DNA of 59,730 bases, taken from positions 1 through 59,730 of the forward strand of contig CANHCV010000006.1 of the NCBI GenBank assembly GCA_947459245.1, read 5' to 3'. The position numbers were made by a program, and so were the translations under genes. The first letter of the stretch is position 1, and every line of letters begins with the position of its first letter. Source of the DNA: Bacteroidota bacterium. Lineage in GTDB: Bacteria; Bacteroidota; Bacteroidia; UBA7662; CANHCV01. Shown one piece after another: positions 1,279-11,792 of the stretch. Under the pieces are notes generated by a model. The model saw only the letters and a program-made list of their open reading frames with translations, ran no database searches and was not told the DNA's origin.

Positions 1279-1899
1279 TTAACTTTTCAAACCCTTCTTG
1301 CACTTCGAACAAAAGGCCTTGGGTTCATTTTCAATGTTTGCCCCTTTGCCTTGGGCATCCTTCATCATGCAATGCGGAGTGACGCAATGCTCCAACCCGT
1401 AATTGTGACCCAATTCGTGCAACACCACGTAAGCCAATTTCTTCTGCAGTTTGTTGTTGCCGAAACGACTGCTGCTAACAACGCAAGCATTTCCCGGTTG
1501 CCGGCCTAATCCAAAAATGCGGTAGTTTGGGTAGATTTTCCCATTCAATTTCCGATCGGTGCAAATATCCAGATTCGTCAAGATCAAAACTTTGGCCTTT
1601 TTCGCCCCGTATTTTTGTTGGATAAAGCCGAGAATTTTGTTCGCGTTGTACCGCCCTTGGATGGGCGACATGCATTTTTTCGGAAACGAAGTGGGCGGTA
1701 AGGTTTTTGTTTTTACCCGGTAAAAACCCTCAATTTCCCGTTGCATCTTCACCACCAAATCGGGTGGGAATTGAAGGGTTGGAACCACATAAATAATTTC
1801 CTTAACGTCCGTTTTCCTCGCCTTGGAAGTCTGAGAATCTCCCGCCGTGGCGCAGAAAGCCAAGGCTAAGAGCAGAACGATTTTTTGAAGGTTTTTCAT
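1279..1899 (-). CDS. Archaemetzincin-like zinc metalloprotease with N-terminal signal sequence
   Basis: The 206-residue protein carries the archaemetzincin signature near residues 160-178: HELGHNYGLEHC, then a short loop and HCMM, followed by FCSKCKK. The HExxHxxGxxH motif binds the catalytic zinc with Glu as general base; the four Cys are the structural zinc site of this family. Unlike the cytosolic archaeal proteins, it starts with a basic stretch and a hydrophobic segment (IVLLLALAFCATA), predicting export to the periplasm or outer surface. The Cys in that segment is not in a good lipobox. Its ATG overlaps the stop of the upstream PLP-enzyme gene by 4 bases, so it is the third gene of a tightly coupled operon. 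Substrate unknown. Confidence 0.82.
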   Translation of the reverse strand: MKNLQKIVLLLALAFCATAGDSQTSKARKTDVKEIIYVVPTLQFPPDLVVKMQREIEGFYRVKTKTLPPTSFPKKCMSPIQGRYNANKILGFIQQKYGAKKAKVLILTNLDICTDRKLNGKIYPNYRIFGLGRQPGNACVVSSSRFGNNKLQKKLAYVVLHELGHNYGLEHCVTPHCMMKDAQGKGANIENEPKAFCSKCKKGLKS

Positions 1900-3041
1900 C
1901 CTCTTTCATTTTTTAAAACATCCAACAATTGCTGCAATTGGTTTTCATCGTTGAAGACCTGGAACGAATAACGCACAAACGTGTTTCCGTTTTGTTCGGT
2001 CACCGGAATTTCGATGCGGTAATGATCCACCAATTTTCTGTACAAATTTACTGGATTTTTGGTTGGAAACGGAATCGCAAACATCTGCCCCAACCAATCG
2101 GAAGTCATGGGCGCATGCGCCTCTACCCCTAACGCTTCCGTAAATCGTGGCGCCCAATCCCGAACAATTTGCTGGCACCGTTTCGCCACGTTCCACCAAT
2201 CGTTCTCTTCCATGTACCGAATGGCGGCAGGAACGGTGAGAAAGGCCGAATAATCGCGGGTTCCGTTCATTTGATGGTAATCCAAAAACAACGAATCGGA
2301 AGGTGCCGCACTTCGATACCCCCAACTGATCACCAACGGATCGATCCAAGCCTGTTGTTGGGGATTCGCGTACAGAAACGAAGCCCCCTTGGGCGCCATC
2401 ATCCATTTATGGCAAGCTCCGAAATACAAATCGGCGCCCAGTTCCCGAAGATTCAACGGCAATAGGGCGGGCGTGTGCGCCCCATCGATGATGGTGAGCA
2501 TGCCTCGGCGTTTGGCTTCAGCAATGATTTCTTCCACCGGTAAAACGAGTGCCGTAGAACTGGTGATGTGGCTCAAAAAAACGACCTTGGTTTTCTCCGT
2601 TGCTGCCAACCAAAAGTCTTTCAAAAATTGATCTTTCGAAACGATGGGCATGGAAATGTGGGCTCGTTTCATCACAAATCCTCGCTTTTCGGCGTAATAA
2701 TCCCAGGTGCGATCCATGGCGCCGTACTCCAAATTGGTGGTGAGCACTTCCTCCCCTGCCGCAATGGGCAAGGCGCGAACGATGGCATTTCCGGCGTAAC
2801 TCGGATTGGTCACAAACACCAAATCGCGGGCTGAAGCACCCAAATACTTCCCCAAAGCTTCCCGCGACTCGGCCAAAGCCTCCAATCCGAATTTGGTGAT
2901 GAATTGAACGGGGGAGGCTTCGAGCTTGCGTTGCCAATTTTGATATTCTTCAAACACGGGTCTCGGACAAGCCCCGAACGATCCGAAATTCAGAAACGAT
3001 AGCTCTCCATCGAGCAGAAAATCTTTTTTAAGCGGATTCAT
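1896..3041 (-). CDS. Class-V aminotransferase-fold PLP enzyme (isopenicillin-N-epimerase/cysteine-desulfurase-like)
   Basis: A 381-residue fold-type I PLP enzyme. The Schiff-base lysine is Lys212 in GACHKWMMAPKG, and the Asp that binds the pyridine nitrogen is in IIDGAHTPALLPL. This HKW context and the N-terminus (FLNFGSFGACPRPVFEEYQ) resemble isopenicillin-N epimerase-like and kynureninase-like members of the class-V group; substrate cannot be read from sequence. It overlaps the upstream permease gene by 14 bases and the downstream metalloprotease gene by 4, so the three are translated as a coupled unit. Association with an amino-acid permease suggests an amino acid or small peptide-derived substrate (inference). 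Confidence 0.8.
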   Translation of the reverse strand: MNPLKKDFLLDGELSFLNFGSFGACPRPVFEEYQNWQRKLEASPVQFITKFGLEALAESREALGKYLGASARDLVFVTNPSYAGNAIVRALPIAAGEEVLTTNLEYGAMDRTWDYYAEKRGFVMKRAHISMPIVSKDQFLKDFWLAATEKTKVVFLSHITSSTALVLPVEEIIAEAKRRGMLTIIDGAHTPALLPLNLRELGADLYFGACHKWMMAPKGASFLYANPQQQAWIDPLVISWGYRSAAPSDSLFLDYHQMNGTRDYSAFLTVPAAIRYMEENDWWNVAKRCQQIVRDWAPRFTEALGVEAHAPMTSDWLGQMFAIPFPTKNPVNLYRKLVDHYRIEIPVTEQNGNTFVRYSFQVFNDENQLQQLLDVLKNERG

Positions 3042-4365
3042 GCGATTTTTTTAAAAGCTTTTTAAGGATAAAATACAGGGGGAATCCGGCCAGGAACAGA
3101 CCCAAACCGATCCAAAATGCTTGCGGATCTTGAAGCATCACGCTGATGGTAACTCCCAAATAAATCAGTACAAAGAGGATGGGCCCCCAAGGGTAGCCTT
3201 TCATTTCAAAAATTTCGTTGGGGGCTTCAGCAGCTTTTTTCCTCAACCAAAAAATGGAAGCCGCACCAAGGATAAACCCAATGCTATCAAAAAACATCAC
3301 GTAACCCAAAATCTTTTGGAAGGATTCCAGAAATACCACCGAAAGCACCATCACCACACAGAAAAATCCGATTCCCCAAACGGGAACTTGTTTGGACTTG
3401 GACAACTTCTGAAAAACCTTGGGCAGCACTCCTTCTTCGGCCATGGCCACATAAATTCGAGAACTGCTGATGAGGGTGACGTTGGCAAAACTCATCACCG
3501 CCAAATAAAACAGTAAGTTCAGAAACAGTTGGGCTTGAGCTCCACCCATGAGAAACGTTAGATCCGACGCCAATGTGTTGGTGGATGCCATGTGCGGAAG
3601 TCCGAGAGCCGAAACATAACTCCAATTGATGGCCATGTAAAGCACCATGATGAGCAAAATTCCACCCAGAACGGCCTTGGGAATGGTTCGTTTCGGTTGG
3701 TCGATATCGCCCCCAAAATTGATGATGCTTTGGTAACCGCCGAATGTAAAAAAGATGGGAACGAAGCAAAGCAATAGATTTTTCCATGAGAACGGGGCCG
3801 GTGGAAGATCGTGAACCGCCGGAGAGGGAGTCACCCAAAACAAAGCCGAAATGAGGAACACCATCAATCCGATTTTGATGATCATGAGGATGTTGATGAG
3901 GCGGCTGCTCATTTTTAATCCAAGAAGATTGAAGCCCCATAAAAAGGCGATGGTGCACAGGGCGATGCTCCCTTCGGAAATGTTGAGGGAATACCCAAAA
4001 CGTCCGCCGAAGTCGTGCAGAAACGAATGCAGGTAACTGCTTCCGAGGAGGGTAACGGCCGTGGTGGCCCCTGCGTTGCTGATGACCAAAATCCAGTTCA
4101 CCATGAAGGCCACCACGGGATGGTACACCCGCGAAAAGACTTTGTAAAATCCGCCGCTCACGGGAAGTCGGGTGCCAATTTCGGCAAAGATGAACGATCC
4201 AATAAAGCTCACCGCTCCGCCCAAGATCCATGCCCAGAAATAAACGGCTTCCGATCCTTGGGCGTGCCGCGCCACTTCGGAGGGGGTTCGAAATATTCCC
4301 ATCCCAATAACCAATCCCGCCACAATGAAGGTGACGTCCAACGTTTTTAATCGGTGCTGACTCAT
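3028..4365 (-). CDS. APC-family amino-acid permease
   Basis: A 445-residue integral membrane protein with about 12 hydrophobic segments. The N-terminus (MSQHRLKTLDVTFIVAGLVIGMGIFRTP) has the GxxIGxGIF motif of transmembrane helix 1 of the amino acid-polyamine-organocation superfamily, followed by GSEAVYFWAWILGG and ARLP-type helix-2 sequence (AEIGTRLPVSGGFYKVF). It most resembles the LAT/SteT-like exchangers. It should move amino acids across the inner membrane; specificity is not predictable. First gene of a three-gene operon with the PLP enzyme and archaemetzincin; the 128 bases upstream contain no clear TAnnTTTG box. Confidence 0.88.
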   Translation of the reverse strand: MSQHRLKTLDVTFIVAGLVIGMGIFRTPSEVARHAQGSEAVYFWAWILGGAVSFIGSFIFAEIGTRLPVSGGFYKVFSRVYHPVVAFMVNWILVISNAGATTAVTLLGSSYLHSFLHDFGGRFGYSLNISEGSIALCTIAFLWGFNLLGLKMSSRLINILMIIKIGLMVFLISALFWVTPSPAVHDLPPAPFSWKNLLLCFVPIFFTFGGYQSIINFGGDIDQPKRTIPKAVLGGILLIMVLYMAINWSYVSALGLPHMASTNTLASDLTFLMGGAQAQLFLNLLFYLAVMSFANVTLISSSRIYVAMAEEGVLPKVFQKLSKSKQVPVWGIGFFCVVMVLSVVFLESFQKILGYVMFFDSIGFILGAASIFWLRKKAAEAPNEIFEMKGYPWGPILFVLIYLGVTISVMLQDPQAFWIGLGLFLAGFPLYFILKKLLKKSHESA

Positions 4366-4493: not shown

Positions 4494-4907
4494 TTATAAC
4501 TTTAAGCACAATTCATCTGGAGATAACACCTCAATTTCGCTGGTTTTAAAATTCTTTAGATTTCTTGTAACCAAGTAATTCATTCCGGGAATGGATGATG
4601 CGCACTGCATTTGAACAGCATCTTCAAAGTCTTTAATGCTTGATCGCAAACCCTTTTTTAATCCATCTAAATCCACTGGAATAACTTCAATAAAGTCGAG
4701 TAGGTTGAAAAGAATCGTTCTAAGTTCCTTTTCATCCACGTATTTCTTCAACAAATAATGGGCGGTTACGATGGAATGGGAAGAGGTGTAAAGGTGTGTT
4801 TTGTTTTCTTCTTTGCTTTTGAAAATTTCGATGGCATGTTTGCTGAAGGGCTTCCGATCGGCGATGAGGTCGATCAAAATATTGGTATCGAGAAACACTT
4901 TTAACAT
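4494..4907 (-). CDS. PIN-domain (VapC-like) RNase toxin
   Basis: A 137-residue PIN domain. It begins MLKVFLDTNILIDLI, giving the first catalytic Asp (residue 7), and has a second acidic cluster in KDFEDAVQMQCA, the magnesium-binding site of PIN nucleases; the C-terminus keeps YLVTRNLKNF and the SPDEL segment common in Bacteroidota PIN toxins. VapC-type proteins cleave tRNA or rRNA. Its ATG shares one base with the TGA of the upstream antitoxin gene, the usual tight coupling of vapBC pairs. Confidence 0.85.
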   Translation of the reverse strand: MLKVFLDTNILIDLIADRKPFSKHAIEIFKSKEENKTHLYTSSHSIVTAHYLLKKYVDEKELRTILFNLLDFIEVIPVDLDGLKKGLRSSIKDFEDAVQMQCASSIPGMNYLVTRNLKNFKTSEIEVLSPDELCLKL

Positions 4908-5149
4908 CAGGAGTGCTTCTTTTCAATGGCAGATAATCGTTCTTTCGACTCGTCGAAATCTTCTGGTAGTTGAACGGAGCCGACCAACTTTTTTAGTTTT
5001 GGGGAAAGATCTGAGGGATTTTTTTCTTCGGTAATGGTTGCGAGGTAGTTTTCAACCAATTCAGACAGGCTTCTTCCGGTTTCTTTTGCGTAGGATTTCG
5101 CCTTTTCAATCACCTTTTTTTCTACGGTTAGGGTCAACTTGGTTAGCAT
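4907..5149 (-). CDS. DUF6364-like / ribbon-helix-helix antitoxin
   Basis: An 80-residue protein starting MLTKLTLTVEKKVIEKAKSY with a following SLSELVENYLATI, the beta-strand plus two helices of a ribbon-helix-helix DNA-binding fold as in DUF6364 antitoxins. The charged C-terminal half (PEDFDESKERLSAIEKK) probably wraps the PIN toxin. It lies directly upstream of, and overlaps by one base, the PIN-domain gene. The promoter carries repeated ACGTGTT motifs that are good operator candidates. Confidence 0.8.
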   Translation of the reverse strand: MLTKLTLTVEKKVIEKAKSYAKETGRSLSELVENYLATITEEKNPSDLSPKLKKLVGSVQLPEDFDESKERLSAIEKKHS

Positions 5150-5180: not shown

Positions 5181-5229
5181 GCCGAGAATTATTCAATGGT
5201 TTAGGAAAAATGATAAGATAAAAATTACC

Positions 5230-5324
5230 TCACCCCTACTCCTCCCGAATCCGGGGATCGATCCACCGGTGGATGCGATCGGTGAGGGCTTGAAGGAACA
5301 TGAATAGGATGGAAACCAATAAAA
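5230..5324. repeat. 95-bp direct repeat, distal copy: orphan 3' end of the ABC permease gene
   Basis: Matches 6233-6327 over 95 bases with three substitutions and no gaps. Read leftward it encodes the same last 28 or so residues and stop codon of the permease (ending DRIHRWIDPRIREE). The three differences are all third-position synonymous changes (Phe, Ile and His codons). It is an orphan gene end separated from the intact permease by the Fic cassette. Confidence 0.9.
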
Positions 5325-5340
5325 AAGTTGAAAAATTTTG

Positions 5341-5348
5341 TACATTTG
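5341..5348 (+). promoter_or_regulatory. -7 promoter box of the Fic antitoxin-toxin operon
   Basis: TACATTTG, a perfect TAnnTTTG match, 22 bases before the antitoxin ATG and only 17 bases inside the cassette boundary, so the cassette brings its own promoter. No convincing -33 TTTG is visible. Confidence 0.5.
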
Positions 5349-5370
5349 ACCAAGGAATAATCCTAAAGAA

Positions 5371-5592
5371 ATGTACATCCCTATTGAAATTGACCGAGAA
5401 AATTTGACCATCATGGGGGTAAAATTTTCCGATTTAATAACTTTAGAAAACACTGCCAATGCAATAGGTAGTGCCATGTTTGAGGGTTTTCAACCTACTC
5501 CTAAGGGGATTGAAATCATTCGTGACTACGTGACCGGGAAAATTTCTCTAAAAGATTTCATCTTAAATGCCAAAGAAAAAGCTTTTGTCTAA
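5371..5592 (+). CDS. VbhA-like antitoxin of the Fic toxin
   Basis: A 73-residue protein with the class-I Fic inhibitor helix: SAMFEG (Ser-x3-Glu-Gly, matching the [S/T]xxxE[G/N] inhibition motif) followed by QPTPKGIEIIRDYVTGKISLKDFI, the typical VbhA 'EGxxP ... YVxGxIS' layout. In class-I systems the Glu occupies the ATP gamma-phosphate site of the Fic protein and blocks AMPylation. It overlaps the Fic gene by 26 bases. The N-terminal half (MYIPIEIDRENLTIMGVKF) is a short extension of unknown role. Confidence 0.85.
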   Translation: MYIPIEIDRENLTIMGVKFSDLITLENTANAIGSAMFEGFQPTPKGIEIIRDYVTGKISLKDFILNAKEKAFV

Positions 5593-6184
5593 TTCTTATC
5601 AGTACATCGATCCTCATTTTACCTACATTAATCCAAATTCTGGAATATTATTTAATTTACAAGGGATTGAAGATCCTGAAGTTTTTATTTTCTTTGAAAG
5701 TGGATCAGTTGCAAAAAGGTTAAATCAACTTCATGCAAATCCGATTAAAATAATAGGGATTGAAACCCTTTTTGAAATTCACAAATTTTTATTTCAAGAC
5801 ATTTTTTCATGGGCGGGGGAAACAAGAAAAGTTGAAATAAGTAAAGATGGAAAACAATTTTTCCCCATTGCATTCTTTGAAAGTGGTTTTAAATACTTGG
5901 AAAATCTCATTAACACGTACAAGTCAATCCCAAAAGATGATAAATTGCAACTGTCAGAAAAATTGGCAGAAATCCTTGATAATTTAAATTACTTACATCC
6001 ATTTAGAGAAGGTAACGGAAGGACTCAACGCGAGTTCCTTAGGGTTTTGGCACTAGAAAAAGGTTATTCACTAAATTTAAATCCTCCGGATAATAAGGAC
6101 ATTTACGATCGCTACATGAACGGAACAATAGATAGCGACTTGAAAATTCTAAACTCATTAATTTTTGAGCAATTAATGCATTAA
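5567..6184 (+). CDS. Fic-domain AMP-transferase toxin (VbhT-like, class I)
   Basis: A 205-residue Fic protein with the catalytic motif HPFREGNGR at residues 144-152 (His is the general base; Glu/Asn-Gly-Arg position the nucleotide phosphates) and an upstream FSWAGETRKVEISKDGKQFF segment that forms the target-docking flap. Such enzymes transfer AMP from ATP to target proteins, for example topoisomerase subunits in VbhT and FicT. It lacks the N-terminal inhibitory helix of class-II Fic proteins, in keeping with inhibition by the separate antitoxin. It overlaps the antitoxin gene by 26 bases. Codon use is AT-rich compared with neighbours, consistent with acquisition. Confidence 0.9.
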   Translation: MPKKKLLSNSYQYIDPHFTYINPNSGILFNLQGIEDPEVFIFFESGSVAKRLNQLHANPIKIIGIETLFEIHKFLFQDIFSWAGETRKVEISKDGKQFFPIAFFESGFKYLENLINTYKSIPKDDKLQLSEKLAEILDNLNYLHPFREGNGRTQREFLRVLALEKGYSLNLNPPDNKDIYDRYMNGTIDSDLKILNSLIFEQLMH

Positions 6185-6232
6185 AAATACTTTTCCCGTT
6201 TTTTTTCAAATTCTTTTGAATCTTACCTCCCC

Positions 6233-6327
6233 TCACCCCTACTCCTCCCGAATCCGGGGATCGATCCACCGATGAATGCGATCGGTGAGGGCTTGAAGAA
6301 ACATGAATAGGATGGAAACCAATAAAA
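6233..6327. repeat. 95-bp direct repeat, proximal copy: 3' end of the intact ABC permease gene
   Basis: This copy contains the stop codon (6239-6241 on the minus strand) and last codons of the intact permease gene. It pairs with 5230-5324 (92 of 95 bases identical). Similarity stops abruptly at the right boundary, where only this copy continues into the gene. Confidence 0.9.
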
Positions 6328-7285
6328 CAATGCCCATCAACACCGGCAAATCGGAGGCGTTCAAGGCATCCACGGTAAGTTTTCCCAATCCTTTCCAACC
6401 GAAAATGGTTTCCACGAAAACCGCCCCGGCCAACAAACTCGCCAACCATCCGGTAATCGTGGTCACCACCGGGGCCATGGAATTTCGCAAAACGTGCCAA
6501 CGAAATACGGCCCATTCCGAAAGCCCTTTGGCACGAGCCGTGCGGATGTAATCCATGGAATACGTTTCCAAAAAACTGGAGCGCGACATCTGCAAAACCA
6601 CCGCTAACGGACGAATGCCCAAGGTGAAGGCGGGCAAGATTAAATTCTTCCAAGCGATGTGTTTGCCTTCCCAAACATCGTAATCCATCCAACTTCCGCT
6701 GATGGGCAAACCCGTGGCATCGTGCCACCAATATCCCAAAAAGAAAGCCGCTAAAACCGCCGCCAAATAACTGGGGATGGAAATCCCCAAGGTAGAAATC
6801 CCAACCAAAGCCCGATCCAGCCAGGTTCCCTGCTTCCAAGCCGTTATTCCCCCCAAGGCCAATCCCAAAATCAATGCAATTCCAATGGCGGATAAGGCCA
6901 AAATGGCCGTTCCAGGCAAACTTTCCATCAATAAATCGGAAACCGAACGGTTGTTTTGAAAGGATTTCCCCAAATACGGCCACTTGAGCATGCACCCCTT
7001 TTCATCTCCCTTCCATACCCAAACCCCCGAAAACTCCAAGGATGTAGAATCGGTGGGGTGAAAACCAACGGGACTAAGGCGATTCAAAGTTTGCAAGTAT
7101 TGAACCGATAGCGGCTGATCCAATCCCCATTTTGTGCGGATGGCCTGACGGGTTTTTTCATCGGAATTTTGTCCTAAGGCCGATTCTACGGCATCGCTCG
7201 ATAGTCCGAAAAACAACAAAAACACCAAGGTCACTACGCCCCAAAGCGTAAAAAACCACAGCAATCCTTTTCTCAATCCGTGCAT
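6239..7285 (-). CDS. ABC transporter permease, DppB/OppB family
   Basis: A 348-residue inner-membrane protein with the first helix near the N-terminus (LLWFFTLWGVVTLVFLLFFG), an ~100-residue periplasmic loop, then five further helices. The EAA coupling loop is visible as DYIRTARAKGLSEWAVFRWHVLRN, split here by position rather than quoted further, followed by GAVFVETIFGWKGLGKL, both diagnostic of oligopeptide/dipeptide-type permeases. It begins 1 base after the upstream BT_3928 gene. No partner permease, ATPase or binding-protein gene is adjacent; these must be elsewhere or lost. Its last 95 bases are duplicated at 5230-5324. Confidence 0.88.
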   Translation of the reverse strand: MHGLRKGLLWFFTLWGVVTLVFLLFFGLSSDAVESALGQNSDEKTRQAIRTKWGLDQPLSVQYLQTLNRLSPVGFHPTDSTSLEFSGVWVWKGDEKGCMLKWPYLGKSFQNNRSVSDLLMESLPGTAILALSAIGIALILGLALGGITAWKQGTWLDRALVGISTLGISIPSYLAAVLAAFFLGYWWHDATGLPISGSWMDYDVWEGKHIAWKNLILPAFTLGIRPLAVVLQMSRSSFLETYSMDYIRTARAKGLSEWAVFRWHVLRNSMAPVVTTITGWLASLLAGAVFVETIFGWKGLGKLTVDALNASDLPVLMGIVLLVSILFMFLQALTDRIHRWIDPRIREE

Positions 7286-7286
7286 T

Positions 7287-8489
7287 TTATGGGATTAAAT
7301 CTTCGTTTTTCGGCAAATGAGCAGAACTCCAATGCTTCACCACCGTTCCTTTGCGAAGGTACGTTAACCCCGGGTTAGAACGAACGATGGTCTTCAACAA
7401 GGTGCGATCGCCCGTAAGCCATTCATAAGGAAGATGCGTTTGGCTTTGAATTCGCTCCACATCGGAAGGAAGTCCGGAAGTCCAAACAAACACCTTAAAT
7501 CCTTTGGAACGAAGCGAAGCAAACGCCTCAAAAGGTTGAAAATCGCTTCCATTGAGCTTCGACATATCGGAGGAAATGATGAGAAGTACGTTGGCTTCAT
7601 TTAAAATTTCGGCAGTTCGGTCGTTACCGGCCGAATCGGTTGCAACGAAATCGTGCACGGGCGGCCGATAACCTTCCCGCACTTTTCGATCTTTCCGATC
7701 CACAAATTCCCAACCCTTGCTGGGAAGGGCATCCATTGAAAATTCCTTCACTTCACCCGATTGAAGATTCTTGTAAACAAAAATCAATTCAAACGAATCG
7801 GTGGGTGCTCCTTCAGGAATTTTCATCAAATCGGGCAGATGATTCCCGGCCTTGAACGGCCGAAAATCGATGATGGGCAAGTAGCGCAAGGTGAACGTGG
7901 ATAGCAGCACAGAAAAAACGGCAGCCATTCCGGTGATCCATCGGCTGCGCTTCGGAGTTGTTAAAGGAGAAATCTCTCGGTGATGCACCAAAAGAAAGAT
8001 GATGAGCAACAACAAAACAACGTCTTTCCAAAAGCTCACCTTTGGCGAAAGTTTCAAGGCATCGCCGAAGCATCCGCAATCGGAAACCAATTGATTGGCT
8101 TCGTTGAACGGCTGAAAAAAGGAAGGCGATTGGCCGGCCGCTTCCGCTGCTGCGCGGAGATCGGGTTGGTAAAAGGCCGGATTCACGTATCCACTTAAAT
8201 AGGTGATGCCCGTAAGCAGCGTGAAGAAAATCATGGTCATTAGTAGTAACCAGGTCACGCGTTTCAGCTTAAACCCTAAAAACAGCATCACCCCGCAAAC
8301 CACTTCCAACACACACACCGAAATACCCAAAAATAGCGAAAGGGAATCGGAAACATCCCATCCAAAAACATGAAAATACTCGGTCAATTTGTAAGAAAAT
8401 CCCAGCGGGTCATTTAGTTTAATGAGGCCCGAGAGGACAAATAGCCCCGAAACCAAGCATTGGGAAAAGCGCAATAAAAATCGACCCAT
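7287..8489 (-). CDS. BT_3928-family protein: DoxX/MauE-like membrane domain plus C-terminal soluble domain
   Basis: A 400-residue protein. Residues ~1-190 hold about five hydrophobic helices, starting FLLRFSQCLVSGLFVLSG and continuing LIKLNDPLGFSYKLTEYF, the DoxX/MauE pattern seen in Bacteroidota BT_3928-type proteins; a conserved SDCGCFGD motif (about residues 137-144) offers a Cys pair suited to redox or metal chemistry. The C-terminal ~200 residues look like a periplasmic or cytosolic thioredoxin-like region but without a clear CxxC. It precedes the ABC permease by 1 base. A -7 box at 8494-8501 predicts an almost leaderless transcript. Exact function unknown. Confidence 0.75.
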   Translation of the reverse strand: MGRFLLRFSQCLVSGLFVLSGLIKLNDPLGFSYKLTEYFHVFGWDVSDSLSLFLGISVCVLEVVCGVMLFLGFKLKRVTWLLLMTMIFFTLLTGITYLSGYVNPAFYQPDLRAAAEAAGQSPSFFQPFNEANQLVSDCGCFGDALKLSPKVSFWKDVVLLLLIIFLLVHHREISPLTTPKRSRWITGMAAVFSVLLSTFTLRYLPIIDFRPFKAGNHLPDLMKIPEGAPTDSFELIFVYKNLQSGEVKEFSMDALPSKGWEFVDRKDRKVREGYRPPVHDFVATDSAGNDRTAEILNEANVLLIISSDMSKLNGSDFQPFEAFASLRSKGFKVFVWTSGLPSDVERIQSQTHLPYEWLTGDRTLLKTIVRSNPGLTYLRKGTVVKHWSSAHLPKNEDLIP

Positions 8490-9782: not shown

Positions 9783-11792
9783 ATGAACTCCGGTAGAAAA
9801 CGCATTCGCCGGTCGGCCACCCCGGGATGGGGCCACCAAGCAGAAAACCAAGAACAGAAAAAACCTTTTCGTTCTGATTCCAAATCCAATTCAGAAGATC
9901 GTTCCCAGGATCTAAATTTCCGAAAATTCGACGTTGATCACGACCGTTCCAAAGAACGCTCCTTCAACCGAGATGATCGACCGTTTAACCGCGACCGCAA
10001 CGAACGCAGCGGAGATCGTCCCTTCAATCGGGAAGACCGCCCATTCAACCGCGACCGCAATGAACGCAGCGGAGATCGTCCTTTCAATCGAGAAGACCGT
10101 CCGTTCAACCGCGACCGCAACGAACGCAGCGATCGTCCCTTCAACCGGGAAGACCGCCCATTCAACCGCGACCGCAACGAACGCAGCGGCGATCGTCCCT
10201 TCAACAGGGAAGACCGTCCGTTCAATCGTGACCGCAACGAACGAAGCGGCGATCGTCCTTTCAACAGGGAAGACCGTCCGTTCAACCGCGACCGCAACGA
10301 ACGCAGCGGCGATCGTCCTTTCAATCGGGAAGACCGTCCGTTCAACCGCGACCGCAACGAACGCAGCGATCGTCCTTTCAACAGGGAAGACCGTCCATTC
10401 AACCGCGACCGCAACGAACGCAGCGGCGATCGTCCCTTCAATCGAGAAGACCGTCCGTTCAACCGCGACCGCAACGATCGCAGCGGCGATCGTCCTTTCA
10501 ATCGGGAAGACCGTCCGTTCAACCGCGACCGCAATGAACGCAGCGGAGATCGTCCTTTCAATCGGGAAGACCGTCCGTTCAACCGCGACCGCAACGAACG
10601 CAGCGGCGATCGTCCGTTCAACCGGGAAGACCGTCCGTTCAACCGCGACCGCAACGAACGCAGCGGCGATCGTCCCTTCAATCGAGAAGACCGTCCATTC
10701 AACCGCGACCGCAACGAACGCAGCGGCGATCGTCCCTTCAATCGGGAAGACCGTCCGTTCAACCGCGACCGCAACGATCGCGGAGATCAATCGTTCAGTC
10801 GGGAACCACGTGGCCGAAGTTTCGACCGCAACGAACGTGGTGGCTTCAATGGCCGTCCGAAATTAACTCCCGAGCAGGAAGAAGCCCGTCAACAACGCAG
10901 AAAACAAAAAAGAGAAGAGAATTTCAATCCATTCGAGAGCCGAAGCAACCAAGAAGACTCCCATTCCAACCATCAAGAATTTGGAAAATCGCGCTTTGAT
11001 AAAGGCGATCACCAATTGATGCGTTTCGAAATGAAAGGGCCAACACCAAAAGAAATTTCGTTTGCTCCCAAAGATGAGTGGCCGATTCGCCTCAACCGAT
11101 ATTTAGCCAATGCTGGCATTGCTTCACGTCGCGATTGCGATCAATACATCCAAGATGGACGTGTGAAAGTGAACGATGTGGTGATCAGCGAATTGGGTGT
11201 AAAAGTGAACCAAACCGACGTAGTTTTGTTCGACGACGAACCCGTTTCCAGAGAGAAATTGGTGTATGTATTGTTGAACAAACCCAAAAACTTCATCACC
11301 ACTACCGACGATCCGGAAGGGCGCAAAACGGTAATGGATTTGGTGAGCAAGGCCTCGGCGGAGCGTTTGTTCCCCGTGGGTCGATTGGACCGCAACACCA
11401 CCGGACTTTTATTGTTAACCAACGACGGTGGATTGGCTCAGAAACTCATGCATCCTTCTTTTGAAGCTGAAAAAGTTTACCATGTGATCCTCAACGAACC
11501 CTTGACCAAAAACCACCTGTTGGAAATTAGTGAAGGATTAGACCTGGAAGACGGAAAGGTACAGGTGGATGAAATTGCCTACGTAAAACCCGACGATAAG
11601 CGAGAAATTGGAGTGGAAATCCACACCGGAAAAAACCGCATCGTACGTCGTATTTTCGAAAGTTTAGGCTACACGGTTGAGAAGCTCGACCGCGTGGTGT
11701 ACGCTGGATTAACCAAGTTGGATCTTCCACGCGGCCACTGGCGCTACCTTACGTCCGACGAGTTACGCCGCTTGAAGCGCCTATCAAAATAA
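9783..11792 (+). CDS. Pseudouridine synthase, RluB/RsuA family, with a long repetitive N-terminal extension
   Basis: A 669-residue protein in two parts. Residues ~435-669 are the enzyme: an S4 RNA-binding domain (RLNRYLANAGIASRRDCDQY) and the RsuA/RluB catalytic domain with the nucleophilic Asp in GRLDRNTTGLLLL near residue 535, then LGYTVEKLDRVVYAGL. It should isomerise a uridine in 23S rRNA (RluB type) or 16S rRNA. Residues ~1-430 are disordered and charged; residues 78-335 are 13 tandem copies of a 19-20 residue Asp-Arg-Pro-Phe-Asn-Arg repeat (see 10014-10787). Arg-rich extensions occur on Bacteroidota RluB-like proteins, probably adding nonspecific RNA affinity (inference). Confidence 0.92.
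   Translation: MNSGRKRIRRSATPGWGHQAENQEQKKPFRSDSKSNSEDRSQDLNFRKFDVDHDRSKERSFNRDDRPFNRDRNERSGDRPFNREDRPFNRDRNERSGDRPFNREDRPFNRDRNERSDRPFNREDRPFNRDRNERSGDRPFNREDRPFNRDRNERSGDRPFNREDRPFNRDRNERSGDRPFNREDRPFNRDRNERSDRPFNREDRPFNRDRNERSGDRPFNREDRPFNRDRNDRSGDRPFNREDRPFNRDRNERSGDRPFNREDRPFNRDRNERSGDRPFNREDRPFNRDRNERSGDRPFNREDRPFNRDRNERSGDRPFNREDRPFNRDRNDRGDQSFSREPRGRSFDRNERGGFNGRPKLTPEQEEARQQRRKQKREENFNPFESRSNQEDSHSNHQEFGKSRFDKGDHQLMRFEMKGPTPKEISFAPKDEWPIRLNRYLANAGIASRRDCDQYIQDGRVKVNDVVISELGVKVNQTDVVLFDDEPVSREKLVYVLLNKPKNFITTTDDPEGRKTVMDLVSKASAERLFPVGRLDRNTTGLLLLTNDGGLAQKLMHPSFEAEKVYHVILNEPLTKNHLLEISEGLDLEDGKVQVDEIAYVKPDDKREIGVEIHTGKNRIVRRIFESLGYTVEKLDRVVYAGLTKLDLPRGHWRYLTSDELRRLKRLSK
10014..10787 (+). 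repeat. 13-copy coding minisatellite (60/57-bp units) in the pseudouridine synthase gene
   Basis: Eleven units of 60 bp and two (the second and sixth) of 57 bp, the short ones lacking the Gly codon, encode DRPFNREDRPFNRDRNERSG or its 19-residue form. Copies are near-identical in DNA; a degenerate first unit precedes at about 9960-10013. Because both unit lengths are multiples of three, copy-number change keeps frame. The array is also open in other frames on both strands. Confidence 0.95.

Follow-up and report, generated by a model that had tools for sequence, protein, structure and literature searches.

Gene organization of the locus

The stretch of DNA analyzed here (the window) comprises 59,730 nucleotides of contig CANHCV010000006.1 from a Bacteroidota bacterium (assembly GCA_947459245.1), the genome of which is 2.35 Mb long and 99.96% complete. 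The subject of this report is a trio of overlapping genes on the reverse strand of the window, encoding an amino-acid permease, a pyridoxal 5'-phosphate (PLP) enzyme and an archaemetzincin (AMZ), a member of peptidase family M54; there is no second match to this AMZ in the genome. The first gene of the trio (positions 3028–4365) codes for a 445-residue, LAT-like amino-acid permease of the APC superfamily, an assignment that draws on Pfam and NCBIfam profiles, on matches to solved structures, and on orthologues with the same downstream overlap in two related genomes, G001 and G002. The second (1896–3041) codes for a 381-residue fold-type I, class V PLP enzyme of the Egt2/PvdN/SufS superfamily, recognized by profiles and alignment, with K212 of a CHKWM motif as the expected PLP lysine. 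The third (1279–1899) codes for the 206-residue AMZ, recognized from its open reading frame (ORF), profile matches and a structural model, and from the motif HELGHNYGLEHC..C.M..C..C. Residues 1–30 of the AMZ, encoded at 1810–1899, constitute a predicted N-terminal export signal and linker, as judged by a crude hydropathy rule and the model. All three products exceed the gathering scores of the relevant Pfam families: AA_permease_2 (PF13520; 158.1 bits against 27), Aminotran_5 (PF00266; 104 against 21.5) and Peptidase_M54 (PF07998; 44.2 against 24.4).

The permease and PLP genes overlap by 14 nt (3028–3041) and the PLP and AMZ genes by 4 nt (1896–1899, ATGA), and both overlaps recur in the relatives. 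The first-pass annotation of this DNA had reported overlaps of these lengths, which the ORF coordinates confirm, and had described the genes as translationally coupled, which the overlaps fit and which we presume. Predicted sigma-70-type promoters (9 against 10.0 in shuffled sequences) and terminators (7 against 12.2) show no excess, and neither was used.

Conservation within the genus

The family to which the source genome belongs is sampled by three genomes, the source included, all of one genus. The AMZ is present in all three, and so is the trio, with identical 14- and 4-nt overlaps. In G002 the whole trio is contiguous, its overlaps the same as those of the window; in G001 the contigs break inside the PLP gene, with the permease and PLP genes (14-nt overlap) on contig C257 and the end of the PLP gene and the AMZ (4-nt overlap) on contig C114. 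Where they meet, C257 and C114 carry an identical PLP sequence, one with a variant not found in G002, so that the trio is very probably unbroken in G001 as well. The first-pass annotation had allowed that the adjacency might be unique to the source genome; it is not. On this sequence evidence the trio is a real operon, in the sense of a conserved overlapping gene arrangement, and we infer that the genes are co-transcribed.

Within the genus the permease and PLP enzyme are 86–89% identical to those of the window at the protein level, and the AMZ is 64–71% identical. The ratios of nonsynonymous to synonymous substitution (dN/dS) between the window and its relatives (AMZ, 0.16–0.18; PLP enzyme, 0.14; permease, 0.08–0.10) indicate that all three genes are under purifying selection. 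The value for the AMZ genes of G002 and G001 is 0.58 (0.112/0.193), inflated because an N-terminal block of approximately 147 bp has been replaced. This block (about 102–248 of the G001 locus L090, compared with the G002 locus L088) covers the 3' end of the PLP gene and the AMZ signal; it differs between the two genomes, its flanks are 97–99% identical on both sides, and both versions encode a hydrophobic AMZ N-terminus and keep the 4-nt overlap. The difference has the appearance of a signal-sequence replacement.

Occurrence outside the genus

The AMZ (E ≤ 1e-3) and the PLP enzyme (E ≤ 1e-40) were searched for in 395 sampled genomes of the class. The AMZ is found in 48 of these (45 outside the genus) and the PLP enzyme in 45; in the 42 PLP-bearing genomes outside the genus, the match is 44–55% identical in 35 and 25–38% identical in seven, G309 among the latter. 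Five genomes contain both, with 5.5 expected; the genus accounts for three of them, and the others are G205 and G309. Outside the genus this is two of 392 genomes, with 4.8 expected (Fisher p 0.20), the two genes lying on different contigs in both; if only close PLP orthologues are considered, G205 is the sole instance.

Gene neighborhoods were inspected at all 60 AMZ places (57 outside the genus) and at the PLP gene of the 42 genomes outside the genus, over at least 1.5 kb on each side where the contig allowed, a span that more distant operon partners would escape. Neither a PLP orthologue nor a related permease lies beside the AMZ at any of the 57 places, also when the search is repeated at E ≤ 1e-3, and none of the 42 PLP genes has an AMZ beside it. 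No relative of the PLP enzyme occurs at the 58 named AMZ loci among the matches listed, one of which (L148) has a 25% identical permease near the AMZ, not adjacent to it. A permease–PLP pair is present in one of the 42 genomes (G149, of another family), where the permease is 47% identical and the gap is 6 nt.

At E ≤ 1e-3 a few looser associations appear. A PvdN-like class V fragment matches near the AMZ of one locus (L107), a RidA gene lies about 2.5 kb from another (L217), and a 22% identical permease is found about 5 kb from one PLP gene (L075), none of them adjacent. Five named Chryseobacterium loci (L116, L124, L129, L137 and L139) also have a PvdN-like fragment, 27–28% identical over about 120 residues and about 4–6 kb from the AMZ. 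An apparent AMZ–PLP locus in G108 (L209) was rejected: its enzyme is a SufS-like desulfurase with suf-like genes around it, shows 26% identity with the window enzyme and is no orthologue of it.

With no trio outside the genus in either the neighborhood or the co-occurrence counts, a conserved permease–PLP–AMZ system is rejected. The first-pass annotation had offered conservation across Bacteroidota as its test, and this fails, the full trio being found only in one small genus; its proposed route linking the three genes likewise receives no support from AMZ–PLP adjacency outside the genus or from co-occurrence, which does not rise above chance. The trio is not a conserved multi-gene route, and we claim no conserved new pathway.

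These counts fit another account, in which the AMZ is a passenger that was inserted behind the permease–PLP pair and retains a separate role in export-side peptide cleavage, with only the transcript in common. The AMZ may be such a passenger because its co-occurrence with the PLP enzyme is at chance level and the oppB neighborhood described below is old; moreover, AMZs adjoin varied genes elsewhere, are never beside a PLP orthologue in the loci examined outside the genus, and within it diverge faster than the other two proteins. Against this, the 4-nt overlap is kept in all three genomes, even in G001 with its differing block, which suggests that coupling is tolerated or favored, although compact genomes keep overlaps anyway. 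We regard the passenger account as a serious contender to which we would give less than even odds.

Motif and fold of the archaemetzincin

The archaemetzincin consensus has been given as HEXXHXXGXXHCX4CXMX17CXXC (PMC3427221), and residues 161–200 of the window AMZ fit it in the form HELGHNYGLEHC-VTPH-CMM-x17-CSKC. The catalytic Glu162 and three zinc-binding His residues are retained, so that the protein is a predicted protease. In CarG, described as a non-proteolytic archaemetzincin, the catalytic Glu of HEXXH is replaced by Gln (PMC3427221); an inactive protein of this type (NF033824) was considered and rejected, since Glu162 is retained and the score is 24.7 bits against a cut-off of 250.

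An AlphaFold (AF2) model of the AMZ has a mean predicted local distance difference test score (pLDDT) of 91, with a helix at residues 2–20 and low confidence around residues 21–30. All five Foldseek matches under an E-value of 0.001 are archaeal M54 structures (2x7m, 1.7e-13), and VIA-align superposes the model on 4axq, the AmzA of Archaeoglobus fulgidus, over 160 residues with a Z-score of 24.2 and a root-mean-square deviation of 1.6 Å, pairing model residues 31–206 with chain residues -3 to 160. Because the superposition begins at residue 31, the archaeal protein has no counterpart of AMZ residues 1–30. The archaeal AmzA proteins of known structure (4axq and 3zvs from A. fulgidus, 2x7m from Methanopyrus kandleri and 3lmc from Methanocorpusculum) have the same fold as the model (Z 20.7–24.2) and share the full motif; the window AMZ differs from them in being only 22–24% identical and in its 30 extra, export-signal-like N-terminal residues. 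The NCBIfam archaemetzincin model NF033823 gives 102.1 bits over residues 36–203, below its cut-off of 145. Profile, complete motif and predicted fold thus agree with the earlier naming of the third gene, and by these sequence measures the window AMZ is a divergent M54 protein that falls outside the NF033823 subfamily model. M54 homologues have been counted in 47 bacterial species (PMC3890501).

Predicted export of the archaemetzincin

The N-terminus of the window AMZ contains K2 and K6 followed by a 10-residue stretch with a mean hydropathy of 3.28, and ATA|GDS presumably marks the signal cleavage site. A signal sequence had been noted at first pass, and the approximately 30 extra residues indeed contain a probable export signal. 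By the crude rule, a signal-like hydrophobic start is present in 78 of 82 distinct AMZ N-termini and in one of 37 PLP orthologues. The 82 derive from matches over 60 bits, mostly from Bacteroidota, and the start-choice rule favors hydrophobic starts, AMZ starts being allowed up to query residue 32 and PLP starts up to residue 8; because the rule is laxer for the AMZ and weaker matches (signal-less Ignavibacteriota proteins included) are uncounted, 78 of 82 is an upper estimate.

An AMZ tree was built from 63 sequences: three from the genus, 12 taken from the 17 other wide-flank loci of the class sample, and 48 named proteins of 150–300 residues; the five remaining loci (L094, L096, L097, L102 and L107) were omitted, their ORF picks being truncated or in the wrong frame. 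A lipobox-like cysteine is present in 39 of the 63, a hydrophobic N-terminus without one in 16, and neither in eight, of which at least two (L103 and L139) look like failures of start choice or threshold. Five of the eight form a branch with two other sequences, made up of Ignavibacteriota, Chloroflexota, one Pseudomonadota and one Bacteroidota record. Support in the tree is low, 9 of its 60 inner branches being starred, and the lipoprotein label has to change 14 times along it; we therefore claim no single origin of the lipoprotein type.

The lipoprotein-type AMZs (from Flavobacterium, Chryseobacterium, Chitinophaga and others) are about 27–40% identical to the window protein in the best local match. 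Of the 53 named proteins among the matches listed for other Bacteroidota, 51 contain HExxHxxGxxH, and a hydrophobic signal is mostly present. Most of these AMZs have a lipobox-like cysteine, from which those of the window and G002 differ: their Cys16 is lipobox-like, with Phe at -1. Phe before the lipobox Cys is atypical for signal peptidase II, and we do not claim the window AMZ as a lipoprotein. None of the other Bacteroidota AMZs examined lies in a permease–PLP operon.

Within Bacteroidota, exported AMZs look ordinary and often of lipoprotein type, though export is not universal. The first-pass annotation had considered an exported archaemetzincin unusual, a view at odds with the N-terminus counts; its description of the family as usually cytosolic fits archaeal and outgroup proteins. 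Among the papers listed in our searches of the open-licence literature we noticed no description of an exported bacterial AMZ branch, as judged by titles and the opening of abstracts.

The AMZ might instead remain unexported, its hydrophobic N-terminus being a cytosol-facing membrane anchor, or its true start lying downstream. The failure of the lipoprotein call at Cys16 is compatible with this, as is the only other AMZ of the same order (G006, L091), which has no signal in the ORF picked. The excess of signal-like N-termini in AMZs over PLP orthologues argues the other way, as does the N-terminal block of G001, which has no BLAST-detectable similarity to that of G002 and is again signal-like; in addition, the AMZ start codon (ATG) that overlaps the stop codon of the PLP gene is conserved. 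A non-exported AMZ is accordingly a most improbable alternative.

The PLP enzyme and the permease

By sequence, the closest solved chains to the PLP enzyme are fungal Egt2 C-S lyases, followed by other class V enzymes. Egt2 (hercynylcysteine sulfoxide lyase; PDB 5uts) and the PvdN/SufS group belong to the same superfamily and can be aligned over residues 2–366; the PLP lysine and the YGA tyrosine are common to Egt2 and the window enzyme, although the match amounts to only 97 bits. K212, D186, H189, R357 and Y106 are the same in all 17 aligned sequences. The Egt2 residue aligned with Y106, which we take to be the active-site Tyr134, is Tyr in 5uts and is replaced by Phe in 5v12 and 5v1x. The enzyme does not reach the cut-off of any of the 24 listed NCBIfam families, and its orthologues are scattered over the class. 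SufS desulfurase was rejected as an identity (TIGR01979, 86.2 bits against 475.1), and SufS/IscS cysteine desulfurases, EgtE and PvdN generally were rejected on scores far under the curated cut-offs. Literature searches on class V relatives listed nothing that was seen to concern Bacteroidota.

A RidA-family gene directly follows the PLP gene in three of the 42 genomes outside the genus (G162, G191 and G169). Members of the RidA family are enamine/imine deaminases, and because of these neighbors our best guess for the PLP enzyme is an elimination with an enamine product. As a separate observation, the PLP orthologue is clustered with RidA and another class V enzyme (L071, 7176–10006; also L073 and L048) in two families (G162 and G191 in one, G169 in the other), and this additional class V enzyme has a twin-arginine-like N-terminus in L071.

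Among solved structures, the permease best matches LAT2 (7b00), which transports neutral amino acids, and chain 6f2g, which we take to be the exchanger BasC, about equally and over its full length, at about 101–102 bits. With LAT/BasC-like APC exchangers it shares this full-length match and the Pfam AA_permease_2 domain; it differs in falling under the L-type family cut-off (136.8 against 701.8 bits), and it does not reach the cut-off of any of the 17 listed NCBIfam families. These matches point to neutral amino acids as probable substrates, and no further.

The upstream neighborhood

An oppB-like ATP-binding cassette permease gene (6239–7285, reverse strand) lies 1873 nt upstream of the permease gene in the window and 34–35 nt upstream in G001 and G002. 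It is preceded by a gene for a BT_3928 family (DoxX/MauE) protein (7287–8489, reverse strand), with which a five-gene run begins in the relatives, in the order BT_3928–oppB–permease–PLP–AMZ. In the window, two toxin-antitoxin-like pairs, PIN/DUF6364 (4494–5149, reverse strand) and VbhA-like/Fic (5371–6184, forward strand), occupy the gap, and both are absent from it in G001 and G002. The oppB 3' end is duplicated: a 97-bp copy (5228–5324; 94 of 97 positions identical to 6231–6327) flanks the Fic cassette, and because the cassette thus lies between imperfect direct repeats of the oppB 3' end (5228–6327) the insertion left oppB intact.

Of the 21 genomes of the order, 20 have an oppB match; BT_3928 lies next to oppB in 19 of these, and the remaining one (G015) is truncated by a contig end. 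No match to the permease, PLP enzyme or AMZ lies beside the pair in the 17 genomes of the order outside the genus. As the pair occurs order-wide without the trio, oppB is an old neighbor and no evidence for the trio.

This bears on the route proposed in the first-pass annotation, taken as a dedicated peptide-scavenging operon in which the exported AMZ would cleave peptides, the oppB-like and APC permeases would import the products, and the PLP enzyme would degrade an amino acid set free in this way. The five-gene run of G001 and G002 includes oppB, gene order and predicted export fit, and one match to SBP_bac_5 (PF00496) exists elsewhere in the genome (contig C18). Nonetheless, the BT_3928–oppB pair is order-wide without the trio and its contiguity with the trio is lost in the window, and we think such an operon improbable.

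Other features of the region were noted. Compared in 300-bp steps, the oppB genes of G001 (L089, about 2400–3600) and G002 are 75–84% identical, with flanks at about 87–97%; the trio of the window is 73–82% identical to that of G002 in nucleotide sequence, yet oppB is 92% and rplI 96% identical. This mosaic divergence around oppB and the trio suggests that local allele exchange may have occurred. The VbhA-like small protein scores 24.5 bits with Pfam VbhA, just below the cut-off of 25.9, and we presume that its SxxxEG motif and the Fic motif HPFREGNGRTQR are complete. The ORF at 5193–5477 (reverse strand) is the duplicated oppB tail running into the Fic insert and probably no gene of its own. 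Farther upstream, a 60-bp tandem repeat is present in 13.8 copies (9961–10781) within the N-terminal extension of a 669-residue pseudouridine synthase (S4 and PseudoU_synth_2 domains); the G002 homologue has 631 residues, and BLAST finds successive matches in its region, each offset by 60 bp.

Proposed function

We propose that the permease and PLP enzyme constitute an amino-acid uptake and conversion unit, probably acting by elimination, to which an exported peptidase that works independently has been attached in this genus only; we put the probability of this reading at roughly one half. The permease would import, or exchange, a neutral amino acid, and the cytosolic PLP enzyme, which within class V is related to C-S lyases and desulfurases, would convert it, most likely by alpha,beta-elimination. 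Co-translation would keep the two in step for the uptake and breakdown of one amino acid. The exported AMZ would trim peptides, either at the cell surface or in the periplasm, and only in this genus would its expression have become tied to the transport–PLP pair, with the trio downstream of an oppB-like peptide-transporter gene. That AMZ products feed the permease–PLP pair is at most weakly suggested.

Several observations weigh against this proposal. The AMZ and PLP enzyme co-occur at or below chance in the genomes sampled, leaving a shared pathway unproven, and permease–PLP pairing is rare outside the genus (the single pair in 42). Y106 is also Tyr in a PvdN-like paralogue and does not single out a C-S lyase. 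Two of the three RidA adjacencies are in one genus, with a second class V enzyme upstream each time, and in the window the two toxin-antitoxin-like pairs part the trio from oppB.

A broader and rather speculative suggestion is that Bacteroidota possess an exported, often lipid-anchored branch of AMZs that serve as envelope peptidases, one of which has in this genus been wired into a transcript shared with a lyase and with transporters for peptides and amino acids. Because it is found in one genus only, the trio gives just a weak hint, of amino-acid or peptide use. If the suggestion is true, the wired AMZ would be the first genetic context from which the natural substrate of an archaemetzincin could be read; and export of the Bacteroidota branch, if real, would place the substrates outside the cytosol, where they may be reached by secretome or peptidomics comparison.

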